NCBI GenBank assembly: GCA_016125155.1
Contig: WGMI01000024.1
Location: 1-64,000 of the forward strand
DNA: 64,000 bases
Direction of reading: 5' to 3'
Source of the DNA: a bacterium
GTDB taxonomy: Bacteria; Bacteroidota; Bacteroidia; Flavobacteriales; Schleiferiaceae
Positions 4,860 to 23,171 of the stretch are shown here, in pieces (position 1 is the first letter of the stretch; every line of letters begins with the position of its first letter). A model generated the notes under the pieces. It did no database searches. It was not told where the DNA came from and saw only the letters and a program-made list of their open reading frames with translations. Position numbers and translations under genes: made by a program.

Positions 4860-6971
4860 TTGCGAACTCCCAACGCCGTGGGTGGTTGTACTTTCGACAC
4901 ATGCTCGTCTCGGATCCCCATCGGTCTGACCCTGGCGGTTTCCGACGAGGCACTTTCAACACCATCGCTTATGGAAATCGCGGAAGCCCCTGCTTTTGGG
5001 CGCTATACCCCCAAAGAACTGCACACGGCGCTAGAAGAGGCCATTGTGCGTCAACGAGAACGGTGGAAGGCCCTATCGACCGACGTCCACCCTCCAGATT
5101 TCGACAATACCGTGGCGGCCTTGGAACAGAGCAGCGCGGAATTGGACGAATTGAGTTCCTTGCTGTTCAACCTCCATTCGGCCAATACCGACGACGAACT
5201 CGAACGCGTCGTGGAAGTGATCAGCCCCCAACTCGCTGCGCTCTCGAACGATTTGCTCCTCGACCCTGCCATGTTCGAGCGGGTGCGCACCGTGGCGGAA
5301 GGCCCTCATTCAACGGATCCGGTGCGCCAGCGGCTCCTGGACAAGACCTATAAAACCTTTGTGCGCAACGGGGCTCGGCTCGAGGACGCCAAGCGCCCGG
5401 AACTGCGCTCTATCGACCAAAGGCTGGCGTTGGCCACGGTGCAATTCGGTCAAAATGTGCTGAAATCGACCCGGGCTTTTAAGTTGGAATTATCTGAGGA
5501 ACAACTCGATGGGCTCCCAGAAGCCCAACGCGAAGCCGCCCGCACCCGCGCCCAAGAAACGGGTTCGCAAGCCGATGCCGTGCTGACCTTGGACCAACCG
5601 AGCTATCTGCCGGCCATGATGTATCTGAACGACCGCGGATTGCGCGAACAATTGTACCGGGCCTATACCGGTCGGGCGACTTCGGGCGATACCGACAACC
5701 GCCCGCTGGTGCTCGAAATTGCGGGGCTCCGTCGTCATCGCGCCCGTGTGCTCGGCTTTGAACACCATGCCGACTTTGTGTTGAGAGAGCGCATGGTGGA
5801 AAATGAAACCGCGTTGCGGGGCTTTTTGTCTGAACTCCTCGCCAAGGCCCGACCCGCCGCCGAACGCGATGCGCAAGACCTGAAGACACGCGCGCTTCAA
5901 GACGGTGTTAATGACTTAAAGCCTTGGGATACGGCTTATTATGGCGAAAAACTCAAACGAGAGCGCTACGATTTGGATTCAGAACAGCTCAGGCCCTATT
6001 TCGCGCTCCCCAAGGTACTCGATGGGTTATTTCAACTCGTATACCGGCTGTATGGGTTGCATTTCGACCCCCAAACCGAGGTACCCAAATACCACGAAGA
6101 TGTGGTGGCCTATGCCGTCCGCGATGCGGACGACCGTTTTGTGGGGCTGCTCTACCTCGACTTCTTCCCCCGTGCGGGCAAGAGGGCGGGCGCGTGGATG
6201 ACTTCGTATCGAGACGCCCGGGGAACGGGTGCGGACGAACAAAGACCCTGGATCTCGATTGTTTGCAATTTCACGCCACCCGGAGCCCAGCGTCCTTCCC
6301 TGCTCAGTTTCGACGAGGTGACCACCTTATTCCACGAAATGGGACATGCCCTCCATGGTCTCTTGGCCAAAGGGCCTTTTGCCTCGCTCAATGGCACCCA
6401 TGTGTATTGGGATTTCGTCGAATTGCCCTCTCAATTTATGGAGAACTGGTGCTACGAACCCGAGGTGTTGTCCCAATTTGCGCATCATTGGCAGACGGGA
6501 GCCCCTTTGCCTCTGGAATGGGTGGAGCGCATCCGGAATTCAGCGAATCACCTGATCGGGATTCAAACCCTGCGGCAATTGGGATTTGGATTGTTGGACT
6601 TGGCTTGGCACGGGGCCACCGAGGGGGAATATGCTTCTGTGGAAACCGTGGAACGCGCGGCCTTGCAACCCACCCAGTGGCTCGAACCGGTCGAGGGCAG
6701 TTTGGTGTCGACTTCGTTTAGCCATATTTTCCAAGGAGGCTATGCCGCGGGCTACTACAGCTACAAATGGGCCGAAGTACTCGATGCCGATGCCTTTGAA
6801 GCCTTTCGCGAAAACGGATTGTTCGACCCCCAGACTGCGGCAAAGTTTCGCCGATTGCTCGAAACTGGGGGGCAGGCGCATCCCGCCAAAGTGTACCGGG
6901 ATTTTCGGGGCCGAGACGCCGATCCCGAGGCCCTGCTCCGCCGTTCGGGTTTGATTCCGACCCAGGCGTGA
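4860..6971 (+). CDS. M3 family metallopeptidase (peptidyl-dipeptidase Dcp / oligopeptidase-like)
   Basis: HEMGHALHG zinc motif in an M3-type context; start could be 4971 (MEIAEAP). Confidence 0.9.
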   Translation: MRTPNAVGGCTFDTCSSRIPIGLTLAVSDEALSTPSLMEIAEAPAFGRYTPKELHTALEEAIVRQRERWKALSTDVHPPDFDNTVAALEQSSAELDELSSLLFNLHSANTDDELERVVEVISPQLAALSNDLLLDPAMFERVRTVAEGPHSTDPVRQRLLDKTYKTFVRNGARLEDAKRPELRSIDQRLALATVQFGQNVLKSTRAFKLELSEEQLDGLPEAQREAARTRAQETGSQADAVLTLDQPSYLPAMMYLNDRGLREQLYRAYTGRATSGDTDNRPLVLEIAGLRRHRARVLGFEHHADFVLRERMVENETALRGFLSELLAKARPAAERDAQDLKTRALQDGVNDLKPWDTAYYGEKLKRERYDLDSEQLRPYFALPKVLDGLFQLVYRLYGLHFDPQTEVPKYHEDVVAYAVRDADDRFVGLLYLDFFPRAGKRAGAWMTSYRDARGTGADEQRPWISIVCNFTPPGAQRPSLLSFDEVTTLFHEMGHALHGLLAKGPFASLNGTHVYWDFVELPSQFMENWCYEPEVLSQFAHHWQTGAPLPLEWVERIRNSANHLIGIQTLRQLGFGLLDLAWHGATEGEYASVETVERAALQPTQWLEPVEGSLVSTSFSHIFQGGYAAGYYSYKWAEVLDADAFEAFRENGLFDPQTAAKFRRLLETGGQAHPAKVYRDFRGRDADPEALLRRSGLIPTQA

Positions 6972-11792: not shown

Positions 11793-11987
11793 ATGAGTGT
11801 ATTTCTCTTTACGCTGGCCTTGCTCGGATTGGGCTTTGCGGGCATTGCGATCAAAATCTGGGGCAAAAAAGACGGTCAATTTGCGGGCACTTGTGCCAGC
11901 CAAAGCCCGTTCTTGAACAAAGAGGGCGAGGCCTGCAGCTTCTGCGGGGCCCAGCCGGCGGAGCAGTGTAAGAAGGAGGGGGAGTAG
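11793..11987 (+). CDS. Small membrane-anchored Cys-rich protein
   Basis: 64 aa: one TM helix then CASQSPFLNKEGEACSFCGAQPAEQCKKEGE; 3' part is duplicated at 13239-13326. Confidence 0.65.
   Translation: MSVFLFTLALLGLGFAGIAIKIWGKKDGQFAGTCASQSPFLNKEGEACSFCGAQPAEQCKKEGE
11892..11979 (+). repeat. 88-bp direct repeat, copy A (3' half of the small Cys-rich gene)
   Basis: Matches 13239-13326 with 4 mismatches in 88 bp (manual alignment). Confidence 0.95.
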
Positions 11988-12429
11988 AAAAGACTTGGTT
12001 GGGTGAATATAGTGAGGGGGAGATTTTGGTGCGCTTCACGGCCGCTTCCCTGACCCAATCAGGGTGTTTTTGGAATACGAGCATCCCAACATAACTGACT
12101 TACAGCCCCGTATAGAAAGTTGAGAATAACGTATGGCTCACCCTGTATCGAAGGGTGATTCTTTGGAGCGTGGGTATGGGAATTGTCTATACAGCACGGC
12201 CTATGAGATTCGTTCATAGCGTATTCAACGCATAGGATGCGTTACAGAAAGGGGATTAATTCCCTATGTAATGACTTGATCTTGAAGGAATCCAGAAGGA
12301 CAGAGTGGGATTATAGGTATTGGCATATAAAACCTTCGTTATACATCTGTTGGGCTTCGGATCCAAAGCTCCGGAAATTTGGATTTGACTATAGTTACAC
12401 GTAGCTTTAATCAACATAATACACGTGCA

Positions 12430-12678
12430 ATGAACACGAAACTCACCTTAACCATTGATGACGCTGTAATTTCAGTGGCAAAGAAGTATGCGAAAAGCAA
12501 GGGCAAAAGTCTTTCAGACCTTGTGGAGAATTACCTTAAGACAATAGCTGCAAATGAAGGTACAGATGAAGCCATTTCCCCGCGGATTTTGAAATTAATG
12601 GGAGTCATTGAGCTGCCCGAAGATTTTGATTACAAAAGTGCGCTAACAGACGGTTTGGCCAAAAAGTACCCGTTGTGA
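12430..12678 (+). CDS. Antitoxin-like protein (DUF6364-like), partner of PIN toxin
   Basis: MNTKLTLTIDDAVISVAKKYAKSKGKSLSDLVENYL ribbon-helix-helix-like N-terminus; overlaps downstream PIN gene by 4 bp. Confidence 0.8.
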   Translation: MNTKLTLTIDDAVISVAKKYAKSKGKSLSDLVENYLKTIAANEGTDEAISPRILKLMGVIELPEDFDYKSALTDGLAKKYPL

Positions 12679-13103
12679 AACACCTTTTCCTGGACACCAA
12701 TGTGCTCTTCGATTTTCTGGCCAATCGAAAACCATTCTCGTTAGAAGCGGCTCAACTTTTCGACTTTTCGTTGAAAAAGAAGGTGACGTTGTATGTTGCC
12801 TCGGTGTCCTACAACAACATTTACTATATTATTAGACAGTCTCTTACCCATGCAGAATCCATCAATATTCTCACTGAACTCGAGGATTGGACGAATACCA
12901 TTGATGTGTCAAAAGAAGTCATCAGAGAAGCATTAAAATCAGAGTTCAAAGACTTTGAAGACGCTATTCAATACCATTGTGCCCAATCCGTCCAAAAAAT
13001 CGACTGCATTGTTACCCGCGACACCCGGGATTTTAAGAGAAGTTTGCTCCCGACACTGACTCCGAAGGAGGCCTTGACGTTGCTCAACAGCACGGACCTC
13101 TAA
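12675..13103 (+). CDS. PIN domain-containing toxin
   Basis: FLDTNVLFDFLANR start, FEDAIQYHCA and IVTRDTRDF acidic motifs of PIN RNases. Confidence 0.88.
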   Translation: MKHLFLDTNVLFDFLANRKPFSLEAAQLFDFSLKKKVTLYVASVSYNNIYYIIRQSLTHAESINILTELEDWTNTIDVSKEVIREALKSEFKDFEDAIQYHCAQSVQKIDCIVTRDTRDFKRSLLPTLTPKEALTLLNSTDL

Positions 13104-13238: not shown

Positions 13239-13334
13239 TGCGCCAGCCAAAGCCCGTTCTTGAACAAAGAGGACGAGGCCTGCAGCTTCTCCGGGGCCCT
13301 GCCGGCGGAGCAGTGTAAGAAGGAGGAATCCTAA
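13239..13334 (+). pseudogene. Truncated duplicate of the 11793-11987 small Cys-rich protein gene (direct repeat copy B)
   Basis: Frame reads CASQSPFLNKEDEACSFSGALPAEQCKKEES* without the N-terminal TM part; 3 of 4 substitutions are nonsynonymous, one removing a Cys. Confidence 0.85.
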
Positions 13335-13699
13335 AAACGGCTTGACTTTGGTGTCGGTATTTCGGGCGGGCTTCTAAGGGCTCGCTCAGTGGTACGGTGT
13401 ACCCTCCTGCCGTTCTCGACTGCGCTTGGTGCGCCAACTTCCTGCTGGACCGCTCCTTGCTGTATCCTGATTTTATGAAACTTGCGTTTCGCTTAGAGTG
13501 GCTTTCGGCCAGAATAATATTCTATGGATTGTCTTTATCTTACCCCTGCTCCTGCAAACCTATACTGTTTCTTGTGGGTGCGGGGATGCTGTAAACGACA
13601 AAGGTTCTTTGATTCGTGTCCTAATGAACGGGGAAGGAAAACTAGACCTATACGACAGCGGGGTGCGTCTAGGGATGAGAAAACTGCGCCTATAAGTAA

Positions 13700-13712
13700 G
13701 TTATAGCCAACC
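13700..13712. repeat. 13-bp inverted repeat, left copy (GTTATAGCCAACC)
   Basis: 12/13 match to reverse complement of 15374-15386 (GGCTGGCTATAAC). Confidence 0.6.
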
Positions 13713-13786
13713 TTAAAATGACACTTGTCACACTTTTTAAGAACTGTAATCTAATGGGTATTACAAACCTTTAAAAAGTAAAAATT

Positions 13787-14050
13787 ATGAGTAAAAAGCT
13801 GTTTCAAAGAAATCTTGGTCGGACTGACAGGATTATTCGTCTGATTATTGGTGTCCTTGCTCTTGGAGCATGGTACTTTGGTGTCGTTGCGGGGACAATT
13901 GCCATAGTAATTGGAGTAGCGGCTATTATGTTAATTGGCACTTCCGCTGCTGCAAGTTGCCCACTAAATTCTGTGGCCAACATCAACACGATGAGCCAGA
14001 AAGAAAGAGAAGAAAACGATGCGAAAGGAATTTCATACCAAAAAAAGTGA
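13787..14050 (+). CDS. DUF2892 (YgaP-like) membrane protein
   Basis: MSKKLFQRNLGRTDRIIRLIIGVLALGAWYFG...ASCPLNSVANIN is the typical DUF2892 pattern. Confidence 0.85.
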   Translation: MSKKLFQRNLGRTDRIIRLIIGVLALGAWYFGVVAGTIAIVIGVAAIMLIGTSAAASCPLNSVANINTMSQKEREENDAKGISYQKK

Positions 14051-14060
14051 TAGTGAAGCT

Positions 14061-14393
14061 ATGGGACAAGAAAAGAAAATTATTCTGGGAAAAATTCTTG
14101 GGGTATTGTCTATTTTATCAGCCATACCCAAAGCCATTGGTTTACAAATGGCGGTAAATAATTTCAATAAGTGGCTCTTGGGTGACGAGTGGCGATATTT
14201 AGTCGCACTCGTAGAAATAGTCGCAGGTTTACTTATGTTTAGCAAATGGGAAAGATATGGCACAATAATCTTGCTTGGAATTACGCCTGCCGCAACATTA
14301 GTACATATACAATTCCAAGAATGGGTAATGCTACCAATGCCGATTATTTTTGGGATTCTACTTCTTTATTATGATAAAAAGATGCGGCCGTGA
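14061..14393 (+). CDS. DoxX-like small integral membrane protein
   Basis: About four hydrophobic segments, LGVLSILSAIPKAIGL and VALVEIVAGLLMF; an alternative start at 14019 would overlap the upstream gene. Confidence 0.6.
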   Translation: MGQEKKIILGKILGVLSILSAIPKAIGLQMAVNNFNKWLLGDEWRYLVALVEIVAGLLMFSKWERYGTIILLGITPAATLVHIQFQEWVMLPMPIIFGILLLYYDKKMRP

Positions 14394-14405
14394 CAAATTC
14401 ATAAA

Positions 14406-14434
14406 AAGTGCCGTTCAAAAATCGAACGGCACTT
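14406..14434. terminator. Perfect 11-bp hairpin, possible terminator
   Basis: AAGTGCCGTTC-aaaaatc-GAACGGCACTT; U-tract (5 T) only on the minus strand. Confidence 0.5.
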
Positions 14435-14447
14435 AATAAATCATGTA

Positions 14448-15161
14448 ATGGAGAATCCGTTTTCCTCAGATTATCGAGATAAATCAGATAACGAGCTTAT
14501 TGACAGTGCGGTAAATGGCTCTAAGGCTGCCTTAGAAGCATTAATCTACAGGCACCAGCATTTTATATATAACATAGCCTTAAAAATGATAGGTAATGTT
14601 CAGGATGCTCAAGATACTACGCAAGAAGTTCTAATCAAAATAATTACCAAGCTATCACAGTTCAAAAACGAGAGCAACTTCAGAACTTGGCTGTATCGGA
14701 TTACTTTTAATCACTTTCTGAAAATGAAAAAGACGTCATCTGAATTGGCGACTGAATCATTTGAAACCGTAGGAAACCAATTAGACATAATTCCCTACCA
14801 AGCTTTGTCTGAATTGGAAGAAGCCGAGATGAGTGCACAAATTGAAGAAACCAAATTAACTTGCATGAGTGGAATGTTGTTGTGTTTAGAAAGGGAACAG
14901 AGACTGATTTTCATACTTGGCGAAGTATTCAATGCCAATCATAGTTTAGGAGCGAGTTTATTGAACATTTCAAAGGACAATTTCAGGCAGAAGTTATCAA
15001 GGGCCAGAAAAGACCTTTACAATTTTATGAATAATAAATGCGGGCTTATAAGAAAGGATAATCCTTGCAGGTGTTCAGGTAAGACAAAGGGATTCATTAA
15101 AGCAGGAAAAGTGAATCCTGAGAATATGCAATTTAAAAGTGACTATCTTAAAACCATATAG
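14448..15161 (+). CDS. RNA polymerase sigma-70 family (ECF-like) factor, likely truncated by an in-frame TAG
   Basis: ALIYRHQHFIYNIALKMIGNVQDAQDTTQEVLIKIITKLSQF...FRTWLYRITFNHFL sigma region 2; C-terminal CGLIRKDNPCRC; frame continues after TAG to TGA at 15354-15356. Confidence 0.85.
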   Translation: MENPFSSDYRDKSDNELIDSAVNGSKAALEALIYRHQHFIYNIALKMIGNVQDAQDTTQEVLIKIITKLSQFKNESNFRTWLYRITFNHFLKMKKTSSELATESFETVGNQLDIIPYQALSELEEAEMSAQIEETKLTCMSGMLLCLEREQRLIFILGEVFNANHSLGASLLNISKDNFRQKLSRARKDLYNFMNNKCGLIRKDNPCRCSGKTKGFIKAGKVNPENMQFKSDYLKTI

Positions 15162-15356
15162 GAAGTCATCGGACAAAAAAAGGATGAATATGATGATTTT
15201 ATGACTGAGAATTATGCCGTCATTTTCGCTAAACATCCTTTTCAAGAAAAAGATCACAAGCAAATCATATTTAACCGATTAATCAATAATGAATCATTGA
15301 GCAATATTTTTGATATTGGAGATAATGATAGCATAAATAATGAGTGCGAACTATGA
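15162..15356 (+). pseudogene. In-frame continuation of the sigma-factor C-terminus after TAG
   Basis: Same frame reads EVIGQKKDEYDDFMTENYAVIFAKHPFQEKDHKQIIFNRLINNESLSNIFDIGDNDSINNECEL* with no further stop until 15354. Confidence 0.6.
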
Positions 15357-15373
15357 CTATTATAAATAAGAAA

Positions 15374-15513
15374 GGCTGGCTATAACAGCAGTTTGGCAAA
15401 AGTGGCGGTTCAGTACTCCGCAGATACATTTGTGGTTCATTAAAGTTTAGTTCTCCGCTTCAACATTTGTGGTGAAAATCGCCACCTTCGCCAAGCTGCC
15501 AACCGTTAACACC
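15374..15513. repeat. Long imperfect palindrome with internal direct repeats (attC-like in general form)
   Basis: Arms CAGTTTGGCAAAAGTGGCGGTT and reverse complement of AATCGCCACCTTCGCCAAGCTG; outer TAAC/GTTA; internal repeats CTCCGC...ACATTTGTGGT at 15416 and 15453. Confidence 0.65.
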
Positions 15514-15594
15514 AAAACTCAGCCAGACGCATTTTCATAAAAGACTCAAAATAAACTACAGAAACACTCAGACGCAAAGACTAGGCCACTTCCA

Positions 15595-15973: not shown

Positions 15974-17020
15974 CTATTCCTCGAGTTCAAACCCCGGCGT
16001 TTCCCAGGTTTCGAATTCGCCTTTGGGGTTGAGGAAAATCAGGTAGACCTCCAGCCCCGGCTCGGTCAAGGCCAGGCGCTTGGCCTCGTCTAGGCCCGCC
16101 ACCATCAGCGCCGTGGCCCAGGCATCTGCCTTGGTGCAGTTGCCTACCACCACTGAAGCACTGAGCAACACCGTTTCCTTCGGATAGCCGCTTTCCGGAT
16201 CGATGCTGTGCCCGTAGCGCTTGCGTGTAGCCGGATCGTACCGAAAATTCCGGTAGTTGCCCGAGGTCGCCAACGCCCGCCCCGACATCGGGAAAATGCG
16301 CTGCAGCACCCGCTCGGCAGGTTGGTCTGGCCGCCCAGGGTCTGGCTGCACCGGCCGGTCGATCCCAATGCTCCACACCCGACCATCGATCGTCTGCCCC
16401 GACGTACGCAGCTCTCCCCCCACCTCGACAAAGTAGTCGCGGATGCCGCGCCTTTCGAGGAGCGCACAGAGCACATCGACCGTATAGCCTTGGGCAATCC
16501 CGTTGACATCGAGGGAAGAACCCGGCTTCAAGACCCAGTGGCCATCCACTACGCTCAATCGGTTGGGCCCACACAGGGCGCGGACCGAATCGACCGCCGC
16601 AGAATCCGGAAAAGCCCCCGGGTTCTTTTGGTAAAAGCCCCACAAGCGCACCAGCGGCCCCACAGCCAAGTTGAACCGCCCCCCCGTGGGCTTGAAATAA
16701 ACTGCCGCGCTGTCCAACACCGCCTTGAGCAGAGGATGCTCTTCGGGCTTGAGCGATTCGCCCCGATTGAGCCTGCTCAAGGACGAAGTTGGATTCCAAG
16801 CCGAGAGCTCGGCATCGATGGCCAGAAACACACTGTCTACCGAACGCTGAACATCCCGCTGAGGCGGGGCCGTGTAGCGAATCGAATAGGTCGTGCCTTG
16901 GGCGGGCCCTTCGAGTTGGTACTCCAACAGCTTGGGCTCTTCGGGCCCACAGGAAGCCAGAGCCAAACTCAAGACAACTCCCGATGCGATGAGGCCGGAA
17001 ACAACGCCCCGGCGCGGCAT
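15974..17020 (-). CDS. apbE: FAD:protein FMN transferase (ApbE)
   Basis: GTTYSIRY, LSAWNPTSSLSRLNRG, LDVNGIAQGYTVD, VEVGGELRTSG, DAWATALMVAG; lipoprotein-type start MPRRGVVSGLIASGVVLSLALASC. Confidence 0.93.
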   Translation of the reverse strand: MPRRGVVSGLIASGVVLSLALASCGPEEPKLLEYQLEGPAQGTTYSIRYTAPPQRDVQRSVDSVFLAIDAELSAWNPTSSLSRLNRGESLKPEEHPLLKAVLDSAAVYFKPTGGRFNLAVGPLVRLWGFYQKNPGAFPDSAAVDSVRALCGPNRLSVVDGHWVLKPGSSLDVNGIAQGYTVDVLCALLERRGIRDYFVEVGGELRTSGQTIDGRVWSIGIDRPVQPDPGRPDQPAERVLQRIFPMSGRALATSGNYRNFRYDPATRKRYGHSIDPESGYPKETVLLSASVVVGNCTKADAWATALMVAGLDEAKRLALTEPGLEVYLIFLNPKGEFETWETPGFELEE

Positions 17021-17079
17021 AAAAAAACGCCCCGAACCCAAGTTCGAAGCGCTGTGGTTGTAGGAAGGACCGAGCACGA

Positions 17080-18387
17080 TCAGCCCCCGAAATCGTCGAA
17101 GGCCACGTTTTCCGGGGGAACCCCCCATTCGTCGACCATTTTGAGTACCGCCGCATTCATCATAGGAGGCCCGCAGAAATAGAACTCGATGTCTTCTGGA
17201 GCCGAATGTTTGCTCAGGTAGTTGTCGATAAACGCTTGATGGACAAAACCAAGGAAACCATCCGCATTGCGGTCTTCGAGCCCTTCGGCCACCTTCCAGT
17301 TGTCTTCGGGCATGGGCTCGCTCAGCACCACATGGAAGCGGAAATTGGGAAACTGCTTTTCGATTTCCCGGAAGTGCTCCACATAGAACAATTCGCGCTT
17401 GGAGCGTCCTCCATACCAATAGCTCACCTTGCGACCGGTTCTCAACGTGTGGAACAGGTGGAAAATATGCGCGCGCAACGGGGCCATACCGGCACCCCCG
17501 CCCACATAGACCATTTCGTTTTGGGTATCCTTGATATGGAATTCTCCGTACGGACCCGATACCGTCACCTTGTCGCCCGGCTTGAGACCGAAGATGTACG
17601 AAGAGCACACCCCAGGGTTGACGTCCATCCAACCGTTCTTGGCGCGGTCCCAGGGCGGAGTGGCAATCCGGATGTTGAGCATCACAATATTGCCCTCGGC
17701 AGGGTGATTGGCCATCGAATAAGCACGGAACTGGGGCTCGTCGTTCTTCATGGTCAAGGCCCACAAATTGAACTTGTCCCAATCGGGTTTGAACTTATCG
17801 GGACCCGCCGGATCGTCCGGAGCCGGGCTGATGTCCATGTCTTTGAAGTTCACGGTAATCTTGGGTACATCGATCTGGATGTAGCCCCCCGCCTCGAAGT
17901 GCATGTTTTCGCCTTCGGGCAACCTCACGACAAACTCCTTAATAAACGTGGCCACGTTGTAGTTTGACACGACCTCGCACTCCCATTTCTTGATGCCGAA
18001 GATTTCTTCCGGCACCTTGATGGTCATGTCGTTCTTGATCTTGACCTGGCAACCCAAACGCCAGTTGTCCTGGATTTCCTTCCGGCTAAAGAAACCCGTT
18101 TCGGTGGGGAGAATGTCGCCTCCACCCTCCATCACCTGGCATTTGCACATGCCGCAGGTACCGCCCCCACCACAGGCCGAGGGCAAAAAGATCTTTTGGT
18201 TCGACAAGGTGCCCAAAATGGTACCGCCCGATTCTACCTCCACCAACTCCCCGTTGATGCTGAGTTTGACCGGACCCGAGGGACTCAGTTTGGCCTTGGC
18301 GGTGAGCAAGAGGCCCACGAGCAGCAAGATGACGGCAAAAAAGACGACAATGCTGACCAGGACAATCGAAGGGGCTGCAAGTAGCAT
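17080..18387 (-). CDS. nqrF: Na+-translocating NADH:quinone reductase subunit F
   Basis: 2Fe-2S motif [19 protein letters not shown] domain ([21 protein letters not shown]); order in operon. Confidence 0.96.
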
Positions 18388-18395
18388 AGCGATGA

Positions 18396-19010
18396 TTAGA
18401 GTTTAATCCCCATAAAGCTCATGAAGGCCATCCCCATGAGACCGGTGAGAATAAAGGTGATGCCCAAACCGCGCAGAGGTGCGGGAACGTTGCTGTAGCG
18501 CATTTTTTCGCGGATGGCAGCAATGGCGACTATGGCGAGAAACCACCCCACTCCGCTGCCTACGGCATAGACCACGGATTCGGCCGTATTGTACTGACGC
18601 TCTTGCATAAACAAAGCCGCGCCCAAAATGGAGCAGTTTACGGCGATGAGCGGAAGGAAGATGCCCAAAGCACCATACAGCGCCGGAGCAAACTTCTCGA
18701 CAATCATCTCCACCAATTGGACCACCGATGCCACCACTGCGATAAACATGATAAAACTCAAGAAGCTCAAGTCGACCCCGGCAAAATCAGCACCCATCCA
18801 CGCCAAGGCGCCTGGTTGTAAAACATAGCGGTCGAGGAGTTGGTTCAGCGGGACCGTAACCGCGAGGACAAAAATGACCGCAGCACCCAATCCCACAGCG
18901 GTTTCTACCTTTTTGGACACCGCCAAATAAGAGCACATTCCGAGGAAGTAGGCGAAGATCATGTTCTCGACGAAGATGCTCTTCACAAAAAGGCTCAGCA
19001 GTTCTTGCAT
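18396..19010 (-). CDS. nqrE: Na+-translocating NADH:quinone reductase subunit E
   Basis: [35 protein letters not shown]; operon position. Confidence 0.96.
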
Positions 19011-19014
19011 GGCG

Positions 19015-19692
19015 TTAGGCGTTTTCGATGAGTTTGGTGTTCTTGGCGCGTTGCAGCCAAATGATCAGTCCTACGGTAATCAATGCCATGGGAGGCAAGA
19101 GCATCATGCCGTTGTTGGCATAAAACCCACCATTGGCGATGTACCAGGAATCGGGAATAATCTTGTAGCCGAACAAAGCGCCGCTCCCGAACAGCTCGCG
19201 GAAAAAGGCCACCGCCACCAAAATCGCCGCATAGCCCAGGCCGTTGCCGATGCCATCGAGAAACGACTTCCAAGGGGTATTGGCCAGGGCAAAGGCCTCG
19301 AGACGGCCCATCACAATGCAGTTGGTGATGATGAGCCCCACAAACACCGAGAGTTGCTTGCTGACGTCGTAGACAAATGCCTTGAGCACCTGGTCCACCA
19401 AAATGACCAAGGCAGCTACCACTACCAGTTGTACAATGATGCGAATCCGCGACGGAATAAAATTCCGCATCAACGATACGATCACATTGCCCAACGCCAG
19501 AACCGCAATGACACTGATCGACATCACAATGGCCGGCTTGAGTTGAACGGTGATGGCGAGGGCCGAACAGATGCCCAACACCTGTACCGTAATCGGGTTG
19601 TTGTCGTTGAGCGGATCGGTGAGCAGTTTGCGGTTCTTCTTGCTGAAGAGCGGCTCGCTGACTTTTTCGATGGTTTGCACTTCTTGACTCAT
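19015..19692 (-). CDS. nqrD: Na+-translocating NADH:quinone reductase subunit D
   Basis: [41 protein letters not shown]; operon position. Confidence 0.96.
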
Positions 19693-19701
19693 GGGGATCG
19701 T

Positions 19702-20469
19702 TTAGAATTGAATGGCCGCTACGGTCGCGCTGTCTATTGCGGTGCGAACGGTATCGACAACCGGAGCCGATTTGGGGGCGGCCGACGTCATAAAGTAGGC
19801 ATGGTAGGCCGAAAGGCAGTCTTTCAACATCGCATCAACGCCGTTGGACGTAATGGTGCCTCCGGAGATGCCATCGACCACGTACTCACCCGTTCCTTTT
19901 CCGGGTTTTTGAACGGTCAAAGCAACAGATTCACCACTGTACACTTTTTTCTCGGGGAACTGCGCTTGCCAGGCAACAGTACTGATTTCCGCACCCAACC
20001 CGGGCGTTTCGCTCTTGTGGTCGAACGTGGCTCCATACACCGTATTCCCATCGGATGCCAAGGCCATATAGCCCCAAATCGGACCCCACAGCCCCTTGCC
20101 GCGCATGGGAACGATGTAAAACGACTTGCCCTCCACAAGGGCCTTAAACAGCGGGTAGCGCCGCTCTTCCGCCGATTTTTTCAACTCTTCGGCCAAATCG
20201 AGCACAAAGGCACACTCTTTGGCACTGTCGACCACCATGCCTTTTTGAAGCACCACCTCAGACTGGATGTACTCTTCATAGGCTGCGCCCGCTTCGTCGC
20301 GCTCTACGGCGACCCCGATCGAACTCAGAATGCTCTGCTTCTTTTCGAGCACCACATTGGCATCTTGCTTCGATTTCAAACTCGTCGCGGCCACCGAGAG
20401 AATGGCGGCCACAATGATCACCATGCCCGAAGCAAAGGCAAAAGTGTATCCGTTGCTGTTGATGTTCAT
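19702..20469 (-). CDS. nqrC: Na+-translocating NADH:quinone reductase subunit C
   Basis: GKGLWGPIWGYMAL, ETPGLGAEI, flavinylation-type motif SGGTITSNGV; start MNINSNGYTF. Confidence 0.95.
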   Translation of the reverse strand: MNINSNGYTFAFASGMVIIVAAILSVAATSLKSKQDANVVLEKKQSILSSIGVAVERDEAGAAYEEYIQSEVVLQKGMVVDSAKECAFVLDLAEELKKSAEERRYPLFKALVEGKSFYIVPMRGKGLWGPIWGYMALASDGNTVYGATFDHKSETPGLGAEISTVAWQAQFPEKKVYSGESVALTVQKPGKGTGEYVVDGISGGTITSNGVDAMLKDCLSAYHAYFMTSAAPKSAPVVDTVRTAIDSATVAAIQF

Positions 20470-20479
20470 AGGGGGGAAA

Positions 20480-21679
20480 TCAGGCTTTGGCAGGAACAGG
20501 TTGAACGCGCTTGAGGCGCTTGCGGACATTGGCCTCGATCACATAATGGTCAATGAGGGGGGCGAAGACGTTCATGAGCAAAATGGCGAGCATCATGCCC
20601 TCTGGATAGGCCGGGTTGAACACCCGAATCATGATTCCAAAAAAGCCGATCAAAAACCCGTACCAGAGCTTGCCTGTATTGGTCTGGGCCCCACTAACCG
20701 GGTCGGTGGCCATAAACACAGTGGCAAACGCCCAGCTTCCGATTATGAGGTGCTGCCAGAACGGGATGCCGAGGTATCCCTGCATTTCGGGCGAAGGCAC
20801 AATACCACTAAAGGCGTTGAATATGAGACCCATACTCAAAGCGCCCAACGCCGACATCAACATGATGCGCCAACTGGCAATGCCCGTCCACAACAAAATG
20901 AACGCCCCAATGGCCACAGCAATTTTCGACGTTTCTCCAATCGAGCCGGGGATGGTACCGATGACCATTTCAGCCATGCTCCAATCGGCATATCCCACAC
21001 CTGCTTTGCCGGTTACCGCGAGGTTGCCGAGAATGGTCGAACCCGAGTAGCCATCGACCACGGTTCCCCCCGAAGTATTGACCCATACTTTGTCTCCGCT
21101 CATCCAACTCGGATACGCAAAAAAGGCAAAGGCCCGGGCGGTAAGCGCAGGGTTCAGGATGTTCATGCCCGTACCCCCGAACACTTCTTTGCCGATTACG
21201 ACCGCAAACACGGTCGATACGGCGACCATCCACAAGGGAATGTCGACGGGCATAATCAACGGAATCAACATCCCGCTCACGAGATAGCCTTCGTTGATCG
21301 AGTGCTTTTTGACGATGGCAAAGGCAAATTCGATGCCCAAGCCCACGGCGTAGCTGACCACCACCATGGGCATCACCTTGAGCGCCCCGAACAGGAACAT
21401 GTCCAAAAAGGCGGCATCGGGCTGTCCCAGCGCCCGGAAGTGCTGCAATCCGACGTTGTACATCCCGAAGAGCAAGCAGGGAATCATGGCGAAAATCACC
21501 GTGACCATGGTGCGCTTCAAGTCGATGGCATCGCGGACGTGGGCTCCGCTGTGGGCCGTATGACCGGGCACAAAAGCGAAGGTTTCGAAGGCGTCGTAGG
21601 CCGGGTAAAACTTCTCCCATTTTCCACCTTTTTCAAAGTGCGGACGGACGGAGTCGAAGAAGGAACGGGCTGCTTTCAT
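20480..21679 (-). CDS. nqrB: Na+-translocating NADH:quinone reductase subunit B
   Basis: AHSGAHVRDAIDLKRTM, ILNPALTARAFAFFAYP, flavinylation-type motif DGYSGSTILGN. Confidence 0.96.
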   Translation of the reverse strand: MKAARSFFDSVRPHFEKGGKWEKFYPAYDAFETFAFVPGHTAHSGAHVRDAIDLKRTMVTVIFAMIPCLLFGMYNVGLQHFRALGQPDAAFLDMFLFGALKVMPMVVVSYAVGLGIEFAFAIVKKHSINEGYLVSGMLIPLIMPVDIPLWMVAVSTVFAVVIGKEVFGGTGMNILNPALTARAFAFFAYPSWMSGDKVWVNTSGGTVVDGYSGSTILGNLAVTGKAGVGYADWSMAEMVIGTIPGSIGETSKIAVAIGAFILLWTGIASWRIMLMSALGALSMGLIFNAFSGIVPSPEMQGYLGIPFWQHLIIGSWAFATVFMATDPVSGAQTNTGKLWYGFLIGFFGIMIRVFNPAYPEGMMLAILLMNVFAPLIDHYVIEANVRKRLKRVQPVPAKA

Positions 21680-21715
21680 AGGGCGTTTAACTCGGGGGAA
21701 TTCAAGCGCTGTGTC

Positions 21716-23065
21716 TTACATCATCTCTTTGCGCACCAGGTCGAGACCGTGGCGAACGGTTTCCTGGAGCGGCAACTTGGAGGTGCAGACGACTTCGCAG
21801 AGCGCAAAGTCTTCTTCGGCCACCTCGTAAATGCCGAGTCGTTCCATGCGGTCGATGTCTTCGGCCATAATGGCCTTGATCAAGGGCACGGGATAGAGGT
21901 CGAAGGGGAAGACCTTTTCGTATTCGCCGCTCACGACAAAGGCGCGCTCTTCACCGTGCATATTGGTGTCAAGTTCGTATTCCTTGTTGGGGTTGAGCCA
22001 GGCAAACAAGGTTCGTGAAATGCTGAACTTTTTGGGATCCAACGACAACCATCCGAAGAACTCGGGCTGATCGCCTTCGGGAATAACGGTGACCTGGGCG
22101 TGGTAGGTCCCGAGAAAGCCTTCCGAGCCAGCCTTGCGCCCCGTCAAAACATCTCCGCTGATGACCCGCTGCTTGCCGGGCTTCAGGTTGTTGTGGAGGA
22201 GTGGGAGGAGCTGAGCCCCGATGCGGGCTTTGACGTAGTGCGGCTTGTCGACCCCTGAACCGCAGACCGCCGCGGTGCGCTCAGTTTCGTACCGGTGCTC
22301 GTTGGCCAGGCGACCGATGAGCACAACGTCCTGAGGCTGAACATACCAAACAACTTCTCCCTTGTTGAGTGGATCGAGGTGGTGGATCTGCACCCCGATG
22401 TTGGATGCCGGATGCGGTCCAAAAAACCGATTGACCTCCACCCCTTTGGTTTCCGAGATAAATCGGGGGGTAGCCTCAGAACCGTCAACGTTCAAGTGGA
22501 TTTTACCCGGGGTTAGTTTCTTGAGAACCTCCACCCCTGCGGCAAAGAGCCCCTCCATACTATGGAGGGCAAACTCCAAATCGGCCGCCAAAGGGGCCGA
22601 GTTGAAGCAGGAAATGTGGATCGATTTGGGCGTCTGGGCGGGGTCTGCCACCACCGCATAGGGCCGCTGGCGCACAAAAGGCCACGCCCCACAGGCCATG
22701 AGCCACTGCTGGACCTCTTCTTTTTTGCCTTGAGCGGGCCAGTTCGGAACCTCTTCATATTTCTGCTCGGAATCCGGCAGAATGCGCACGGCTTCGATGA
22801 TCCGCTTGGGACCTCGATCGATGGATGCCACTTCTCCGCTGACCGGGGCGCAATAGACAATGCGCTCGTCGCGTTTGTCGCAAAACACGGGCTGACCCGC
22901 GCGAACTTCGTCTCCTTCTTTGACCAACATCTTCGGGGTGAGTCCCGGAAAGTCGATCGGAAGAAGGGCATAGACGGAGGGAGCGCCGATGGAGTGGATC
23001 TGCTTCTCTGCTTTCCCCTTGAGCTTGAGGTTCAAACCGCGCTTGATGCGGACTTCTTTGGACAT
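21716..23065 (-). CDS. nqrA: Na+-translocating NADH:quinone reductase subunit A
   Basis: MSKEVRIKRGLNLKLKGKAEK, DFPGLTPKMLVKEGDEVRAGQPVF; first gene of the operon. Confidence 0.95.
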   Translation of the reverse strand: MSKEVRIKRGLNLKLKGKAEKQIHSIGAPSVYALLPIDFPGLTPKMLVKEGDEVRAGQPVFCDKRDERIVYCAPVSGEVASIDRGPKRIIEAVRILPDSEQKYEEVPNWPAQGKKEEVQQWLMACGAWPFVRQRPYAVVADPAQTPKSIHISCFNSAPLAADLEFALHSMEGLFAAGVEVLKKLTPGKIHLNVDGSEATPRFISETKGVEVNRFFGPHPASNIGVQIHHLDPLNKGEVVWYVQPQDVVLIGRLANEHRYETERTAAVCGSGVDKPHYVKARIGAQLLPLLHNNLKPGKQRVISGDVLTGRKAGSEGFLGTYHAQVTVIPEGDQPEFFGWLSLDPKKFSISRTLFAWLNPNKEYELDTNMHGEERAFVVSGEYEKVFPFDLYPVPLIKAIMAEDIDRMERLGIYEVAEEDFALCEVVCTSKLPLQETVRHGLDLVRKEMM

Positions 23066-23171
23066 GGTGTGGAAATCCAGATTTTTCGGGGCCAAAAGTA
23101 GACATTTGTACGGCTACACTTGCCCACGGCTTGGCAAAATAAACAACCCATCTAAGGCCGCAAACCAAACC

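Follow-up and report, generated by a model that had tools for sequence, protein, structure and literature searches.

The window, by which we refer to the whole stretch of 64,000 nucleotides analysed here, contained a cassette of three genes at positions 13701-15505, which was shown computationally, from its sequence, to be inserted at a putative attI-like site at positions 13638-13699. The third gene was followed by a long palindrome at positions 15372-15519, which the first-pass annotation had placed at 15374-15513. The features are listed below, where the arm rule states that a cassette begins with 15 nt equal to the reverse complement of the left arm (15 nt) of the site that ends it, apart from a nearly fixed A/G difference at position 11.

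13638-13699, plus strand: attI-like site, ending in CGCCTATAAGTAA and then GTT, at which the cassette was inserted
13700-13714, plus strand: cassette start arm GTTATAGCCAACCTT, with the crossover within GTT (arm rule, 14 of 14 positions)
13701-15505, plus strand: gene cassette of about 1.8 kb (two arms, with GTT at each end)
13787-14050, plus strand: cassette gene 1, YgaP-like transmembrane protein (PF11127, E = 1e-13)
14019-14393, plus strand: cassette gene 2, DoxX-like membrane protein (PF13564, E = 0.001, below the family cut-off)
14448-15161, plus strand: cassette gene 3, ECF-type sigma factor (PF04542, E = 8e-13)
15372-15386, plus strand: left arm R'' (AAGGCTGGCTATAAC) of the attC-like site (arm rule; TAAC agrees with the family model)
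15389-15407, plus strand: left stem arm CAGTTTGGC-A-AA-A-GTGGCG (covarying stem)
15408-15479, plus strand: terminal loop region with two direct repeats, 15408-15436 and 15445-15473
15480-15498, plus strand: right stem arm CGCCAC-C-TT-C-GCCAAGCTG (RNAalifold and covariation)
15505-15519, plus strand: crossover GTT and the first sequence past the cassette (GTTAACACCAAAACT)

The palindrome, its outer TAAC and GTTA ends and its two direct repeats, all of which had been described in the first-pass annotation, were recovered from the window sequence. The ends stood as described and their positions were corrected, with TAAC at 15383-15386, GTTA at 15505-15508 and the left arm proper at 15372-15386. 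The direct repeats were spaced by 37 nt and were 79% identical, and the other half of the palindrome, the start arm, was located 1.7 kb away at position 13700. The RNA fold of the site was far below that of shuffled sequences (z = -4.3, 0 of 200 shuffles), and the DNA fold was mildly below and not exceptional (z = -1.3 and -1.6). A riboregulator inside a conserved transcript had been named as another reading of the stretch; the palindrome matched no family in an Rfam search of the window, in which a tRNA was the only match.

We also noted a direct repeat of 106 nt at positions 11892-11997 and 13239-13344 of the window, the copies of which were 89% identical and flanked a DUF6364/PIN toxin-antitoxin pair (12379-13103). 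Short stretches related to this repeat, with 75% to 91% identity, occurred in a small number of genomes from the same family. On the minus strand, the ORF translations at positions 15974-23095 resembled a Na+-translocating NADH:quinone reductase operon with an ApbE-like gene, and this cluster directly followed the accessory stretch of the window.

A plain DNA search of the genome to which the window belongs gave one convincing copy of the palindrome, and a covariance model of the site family later found more, which showed that the site is not unique in its genome. A literature search with the sequence string of the site gave no match, and a search of a phage record collection with the DNA site gave chance matches only. 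The exact core pattern matched 3 IMG/VR contigs and had 2 matches over 396 genomes, and was too strict. A more distant BLAST search with the site identified plasmids of Riemerella, Empedobacter, Myroides, Bacteroides, Sphingobacterium, and Proteus, and the tet(X) gene directly preceded the site in all 5 plasmid records inspected. Sites of the same design were located in the intergenic spaces of the same Bacteroidota plasmids after catB, ere(D), aadS, lnu(I), and other genes. The site after tet(X) was identical in the 5 records through GTTA, after which all of them diverged into 5 different junctions, and the junction was therefore placed there.

A cassette-type site in identical context was also observed in the 3 viral contigs L005 (4422-4560), L006 (3285-3423), and L007 (2166-2304). 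This suggests that such cassettes may be carried by phages; the cassette start of the phage copy is uncertain because the arm match is weak, at 12 of 14 positions versus 11 for the runner-up.

An alignment of 10 sites was used to define the family. RNAalifold predicted 24 pairs in these sites, 17 of which had changes on both sides, and in the named structure of 23 pairs the sequence had changed on both sides of 16; for the left and right stem arms alone the corresponding number was 13 of 17 pairs. In the named structure, 95.6% of the cells were paired, compared to 33% to 39% when the structure was slid by 1 to 3 columns. With the covariance model, sites were identified at E <= 0.01, a rough value for this model, in at least 162 of the 396 Bacteroidota genomes scanned and in at least 92 of 172 genera, which are lower bounds because 6 candidates per genome were scored. 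The sites are thus spread across the phylum and not confined to this genome, and the mention in the first-pass annotation of similar palindromes in accessory regions of Bacteroidota was borne out both by these matches and by a scan of named genomes.

Within 20 fetched loci, the model gave 121 matches, which were organized in long head-to-tail arrays on essentially one strand per locus; the few weak matches on the opposite strand were mirror images of strong ones. The total length of most sites was near-fixed at 138 to 142 nt (about 140 nt), and direct repeats were present inside the loop, where the count of TTTGTG was too uneven to assign a function to the repeats. A promoter role for these repeats, through the Bacteroidetes -7 box TAnnTTTG, was also considered. 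The R' consensus of attC sites, GTTRRRY, was present in only 3% of 120 sites, which agrees with the earlier remark that the palindrome does not strictly match the attC R'/R'' consensus. The stems contained A/C mismatches at preferred positions, such as stem position 14 in 134 of 189 sites, and extrahelical bases of the attC type were not seen as a fixed feature of the family sites. The bottom strand was predicted to be more stable than the top strand in 182 of 235 sites, as expected if the A/C mismatches of the top strand correspond to G/T pairs when the bottom strand folds.

Circulation of the cassettes would imply that each cassette start can pair with the left arm of the site at its own end. 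For 89 consecutive pairs, the cassette start matched its own R'' at 6.81 of 9 positions on average. Shuffled pairings gave 3.35 +- 0.14, a comparison inside one and the same site gave 3.37, and skipping one cassette gave 3.26. A second, independent set, of 78 pairs taken from named genomes, gave 6.37 of 9, compared to 3.37 +- 0.15 for shuffled pairings. Complementary cassette ends, as expected of a circular intermediate, were thus found in both pair sets. For the 51 best pairs, the match spanned positions 1 to 15 and then fell to background level; position 10 matched in 67% of these pairs, whereas position 11 never matched and was an A/G difference in 46 of the 51. The resistance cassettes obeyed the arm rule at 13 to 14 of 14 positions. 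The median length of 115 verified cassettes was 971 bp, and their longest ORF was oriented along the array in 106 and against it in 5. In integrated sites, the R' and R'' arms paired at GTT(R)/(Y)AAC only, so that excision must work with a short arm. Since the integrated arms no longer match, insertion is predicted to be easier than excision.

These boundaries bear on 2 other explanations of the palindrome. It could be a repeat element of the REP or MITE type that inserts as a unit after genes, and the palindromes are indeed dispersed in intergenic space. However, the moving unit consists of a gene plus a palindrome, the left end of the cassette bears the 15-nt arm only, the junctions change only after GTTA, and the ends need no target duplication. 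Moreover, the enzyme linked to the sites is a tyrosine recombinase (PF00589 with the residues R-H-R-H-Y) and not the HUH (Y1) transposase of REP and IS200/IS605 elements, contrary to the REP/TnpA alternative of the first-pass annotation, and we give this explanation hardly any credence. Equally improbable is a transcribed RNA structure, a terminator or riboregulator, conserved downstream of genes: the strong RNA fold and the location of the sites close behind stop codons are consistent with it, whereas the lack of an Rfam match speaks against it, and it predicts neither a 15-nt arm at the opposite (5') extremity of the cassette nor the strand-specific linkage to a recombinase. As the sole function of the sites it is refuted by the arm rule; the sites may have a secondary role as terminators.

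For the cassette in the window, GTTATAGCCAACCTT at position 13700 and GTTATAGCCAGCCTT, the reverse complement of positions 15372-15386, were identical at all 14 scored positions, and the runner-up place in the window for the reverse complement of the left arm had a score of 10 versus 14. The window arms also carried the A/G difference of the site family at position 11. With a 20-nt attI matrix derived from 32 attI sites that lie beside integrases in other genomes, the start of the window cassette was the best of 127,960 window positions, and a full-length nhmmer profile of attI gave a weak match to the window site (E = 0.16). The 62 bp before the cassette start recurred at 84% identity in the same genome (G000:C14:94323-94395), where the attI-like copy also preceded a cassette-type start, GTTATGGGC, 1.8 kb before the contig end. 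This copy surfaced in a search for an empty insertion site in 60 relatives from the same family, none of which contained one. A second cassette in the same genome, on contig C17 with 986 nt between the arms, had an arm match of 14 of 14.

No matching R'' was identified within 20 kb downstream of the window site by arm scan and pattern search, and the window therefore contains a lone cassette rather than an array. No recombinase was present within reach in the window, and the only strong candidate in the genome was cut by a contig end at C21, which leaves the window with an attI-like site and one cassette without the enzyme.

In other genomes, genes for tyrosine recombinases were located directly upstream of the arrays and on the same strand. 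Searching named genomes with the recombinase alignment identified 80 loci, nearly all in Bacteroidota, including Flavobacterium, Algoriphagus, Cyclobacterium, Pedobacter, Chryseobacterium, and Polaribacter; the exceptions were one Ignavibacteria bin and one bin labelled Azoarcus. All of the sites at these loci shared the strand of the recombinase gene, with 123 located downstream of it and 1 upstream, and 36 of the 40 loci with at least 1.5 kb of downstream sequence contained sites. By hand count, 59 genomes had a strong match to the recombinase (E <= 1e-109), 53 of which contained sites, compared to 109 of the 337 other genomes; arrays without a nearby recombinase also exist. At most loci, an attI-like junction that ended in C-G-C-N-TATAAAC-N-A followed by GTT was located 70 to 125 bp past the recombinase gene and preceded by repeats. 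The order of recombinase, attI-like site and head-to-tail cassette array is that of an integron, a bacterial system for the capture of genes.

Three individual loci were also noted. A complete system with a recombinase, an attI-like sequence and 6 sites was located on the Chryseobacterium plasmid NZ_CP041688 (L183, 13001-27041). In genome G376 (C2:150830-151869), the recombinase gene was broken by a stop codon ahead of an array of about 19 sites, as if arrays may outlive their enzyme. In L055 (10775-12544), the recombinase frame contained HARP-like segments that were apparently repeated before the catalytic part, and the nearest detected site was about 11 kb away.

The linked recombinases belong to PF00589 and have kept the catalytic residues R-H-R-H-Y. 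A C-terminal SP(L/F)D motif was common to them and IntI only, and was not found in XerA, XerC, or XerD. They lack about 41 residues between the halves of the catalytic domain, which correspond to the additional domain of IntI, and residues 186-242 of IntI4 (2a3v) have no counterpart in them. This domain has been reported to be necessary for IntI activity (Messier and Roy 2001, as cited in PMC2426708) and has been described as essential, yet not fully conserved in an integron-like group (PMC8138268). In the phylogeny, the new recombinases formed one group with 88/87 support beside IntI, and Xer split off with 100/99 support; long branches meet there, and the exact branching is unsure. By sequence, the recombinase thus groups with the integron integrases rather than with Xer. 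The AlphaFold model had a mean pLDDT of 83 and a pTM of 0.56, with XerA and IntI4 as its nearest structures; the best PDB match was XerA (5hxy).

The first 60 to 70 residues of the recombinase form an extra N-terminal domain. A profile of this domain had one clear match among PDB chains, the HARP domain of SMARCAL1 (4o66, E = 6e-4, the next being 0.18), and the Pfam HARP family matched 5 of 25 recombinases with a best E-value of 6e-6. HARP domains help SMARCAL1 engage branched DNA, and by analogy it is a reasonable inference that the HARP-like domain may have a role in reading folded sites.

The enzymes also bear on whether the sites are canonical attC sites, used by an IntI and merely diverged. 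The layout is the same, with an array, an adjacent recombinase, an attI and a crossover at GTT. However, the recombinases lack the additional domain and scored 192 to 212 bits against the IntI model TIGR02249, under its cut-off of 265, and GTTRRRY is rare in the sites. Furthermore, genome G016 contained a true IntI (432 bits), within 6 kb of which no family site was found, and we consider a diverged canonical system very unlikely. It is less likely still that XerC and XerD move the cassettes at dif-like sites, as in pdif modules. Xer-type recombinases are also present in the array-bearing genomes, and the gene beside tet(X3) has been named xerD in the literature (PMC7473080). However, this protein falls in the new clade and not in Xer, the sites are palindromes of about 140 nt with a GTT junction rather than 28-bp dif sites, and they follow the new recombinase on one strand.

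The authors of PMC7473080 left the role of xerD beside tet(X3) open, and the usual tools gave no integron. We found that this protein, encoded upstream of tet(X3) on Acinetobacter plasmids, was 49% identical to the family over the matched part and nested inside the new recombinase clade. Its gene was shortened at the 5' end and ended 171 bp before the start of the tet(X) cassette, GTTATGTGCC; the site downstream of tet(X3) was partial. The xerD (tpnF)-tet(X3) unit has been moved on by ISCR2-type elements. The system appears to have packaged tet(X), the gene for resistance to the last-resort antibiotic tigecycline.

For natural transformation in Riemerella anatipestifer, a 2026 report (PMC13148043) describes transformants in which, without homology, aph(3')-IVb was always accompanied by 27 bp on its 5' side and 140 bp on its 3' side, and it notes an attC-like fold, leaving the mechanism open and identifying no enzyme. 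The stem-loop after aph(3')-IVb is the same site as in our family, and its boundaries are those of the transferred segment. On the RCAD0416 plasmid, from a strain named in that report, the family model matched the site after the APH(3') gene with 80.6 bits. By the arm rule, the cassette starts at GTT 5530, with the gene at 5559, and ends at GTT 6486, with the stop codon at 6347; within the ambiguity of GTT, these limits equal the reported segment. The report treats one gene, and neither an enzyme nor an attI, an array, a family across the phylum or an arm rule is given in the section consulted.

The site family with its covariation, arrays, arm rule, enzyme linkage, attI position and cassette boundaries were established computationally. 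They argue for the palindrome being the attC-like site at a cassette end of a Bacteroidota integron, the recombinase of which would act at attI-like and cassette sites (probability about 0.88). The suggestion of an attC-like or folded recombination site in the first-pass annotation was right in kind, and we regard it as supported. From the sequences, we infer that the new recombinase performs the reaction, with a circle as its substrate and a folded single strand as the form used. The recombinase, with a HARP-like domain and without the additional domain of IntI, would insert circular cassettes into the attI-like site past its own gene, or join them to the cassette sites of an existing array, with the crossover within GTT. 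In the circle, the first 15 nt of the cassette would pair with the 15 nt before the stem to form the full palindrome, which is probably recognised as a folded bottom strand.

We lean, with less confidence, towards a broader reading, in which a phylum-wide lineage of integrons, with HARP-type recombinases that lack the domain considered essential in IntI, reads the folded, cassette-specific arms by shape and not by sequence, and first mobilised tet(X) and further resistance genes of Bacteroidota. If so, the lineage would be a source of resistance genes that are now present in Acinetobacter and Enterobacterales. Standard integron finders identify almost none in Bacteroidota, with one complete integron in Salinibacter (PMC9024848), because they seek IntI and canonical attC. 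Cassette sites of a different design were present in about 40% of the Bacteroidota species sampled here. This widespread version of the integron has apparently gone unrecognised in the open-licence literature that was searched, and may be described elsewhere. It offers testable answers to whether xerD beside tet(X) mobilises this gene (PMC7473080) and to how Riemerella gains resistance genes without homology (PMC13148043), both of which had been left open. It also lends itself to comparative work on how folded DNA is read by integrases, because a domain thought to be essential is absent and a HARP-like domain is present.

Compared to XerA, XerC, and XerD, the new recombinase has the same fold and catalytic residues, but belongs to a different clade, contains SP(L/F)D and is tied to cassette arrays. 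The likeness to integrons extends to the cassette arrays, an adjacent tyrosine recombinase followed by attI, palindromic sites at the cassette ends, the GTT crossover, a mostly uniform gene orientation (106 of 111 cassettes with an ORF), and IntI as the nearest recombinase in the tree. In contrast to integrons, the recombinase has the extra HARP-like domain and lacks the additional domain, and its gene is located upstream of the array and points the same way. The sites differ in the absence of GTTRRRY, the positions of the A/C mismatches in the stem, the near-fixed length of 140 nt, the internal direct repeats, and the cassette-specific arms of 15 nt with a fixed mismatch at position 11, and the system belongs to the phylum Bacteroidota. 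Since 3 of the defining canonical features examined, namely the additional domain, a score above the IntI cut-off and GTTRRRY, are lacking in a system that otherwise works like an integron and is related to one, we classify the system as a variant of the integron rather than as a member of the class.
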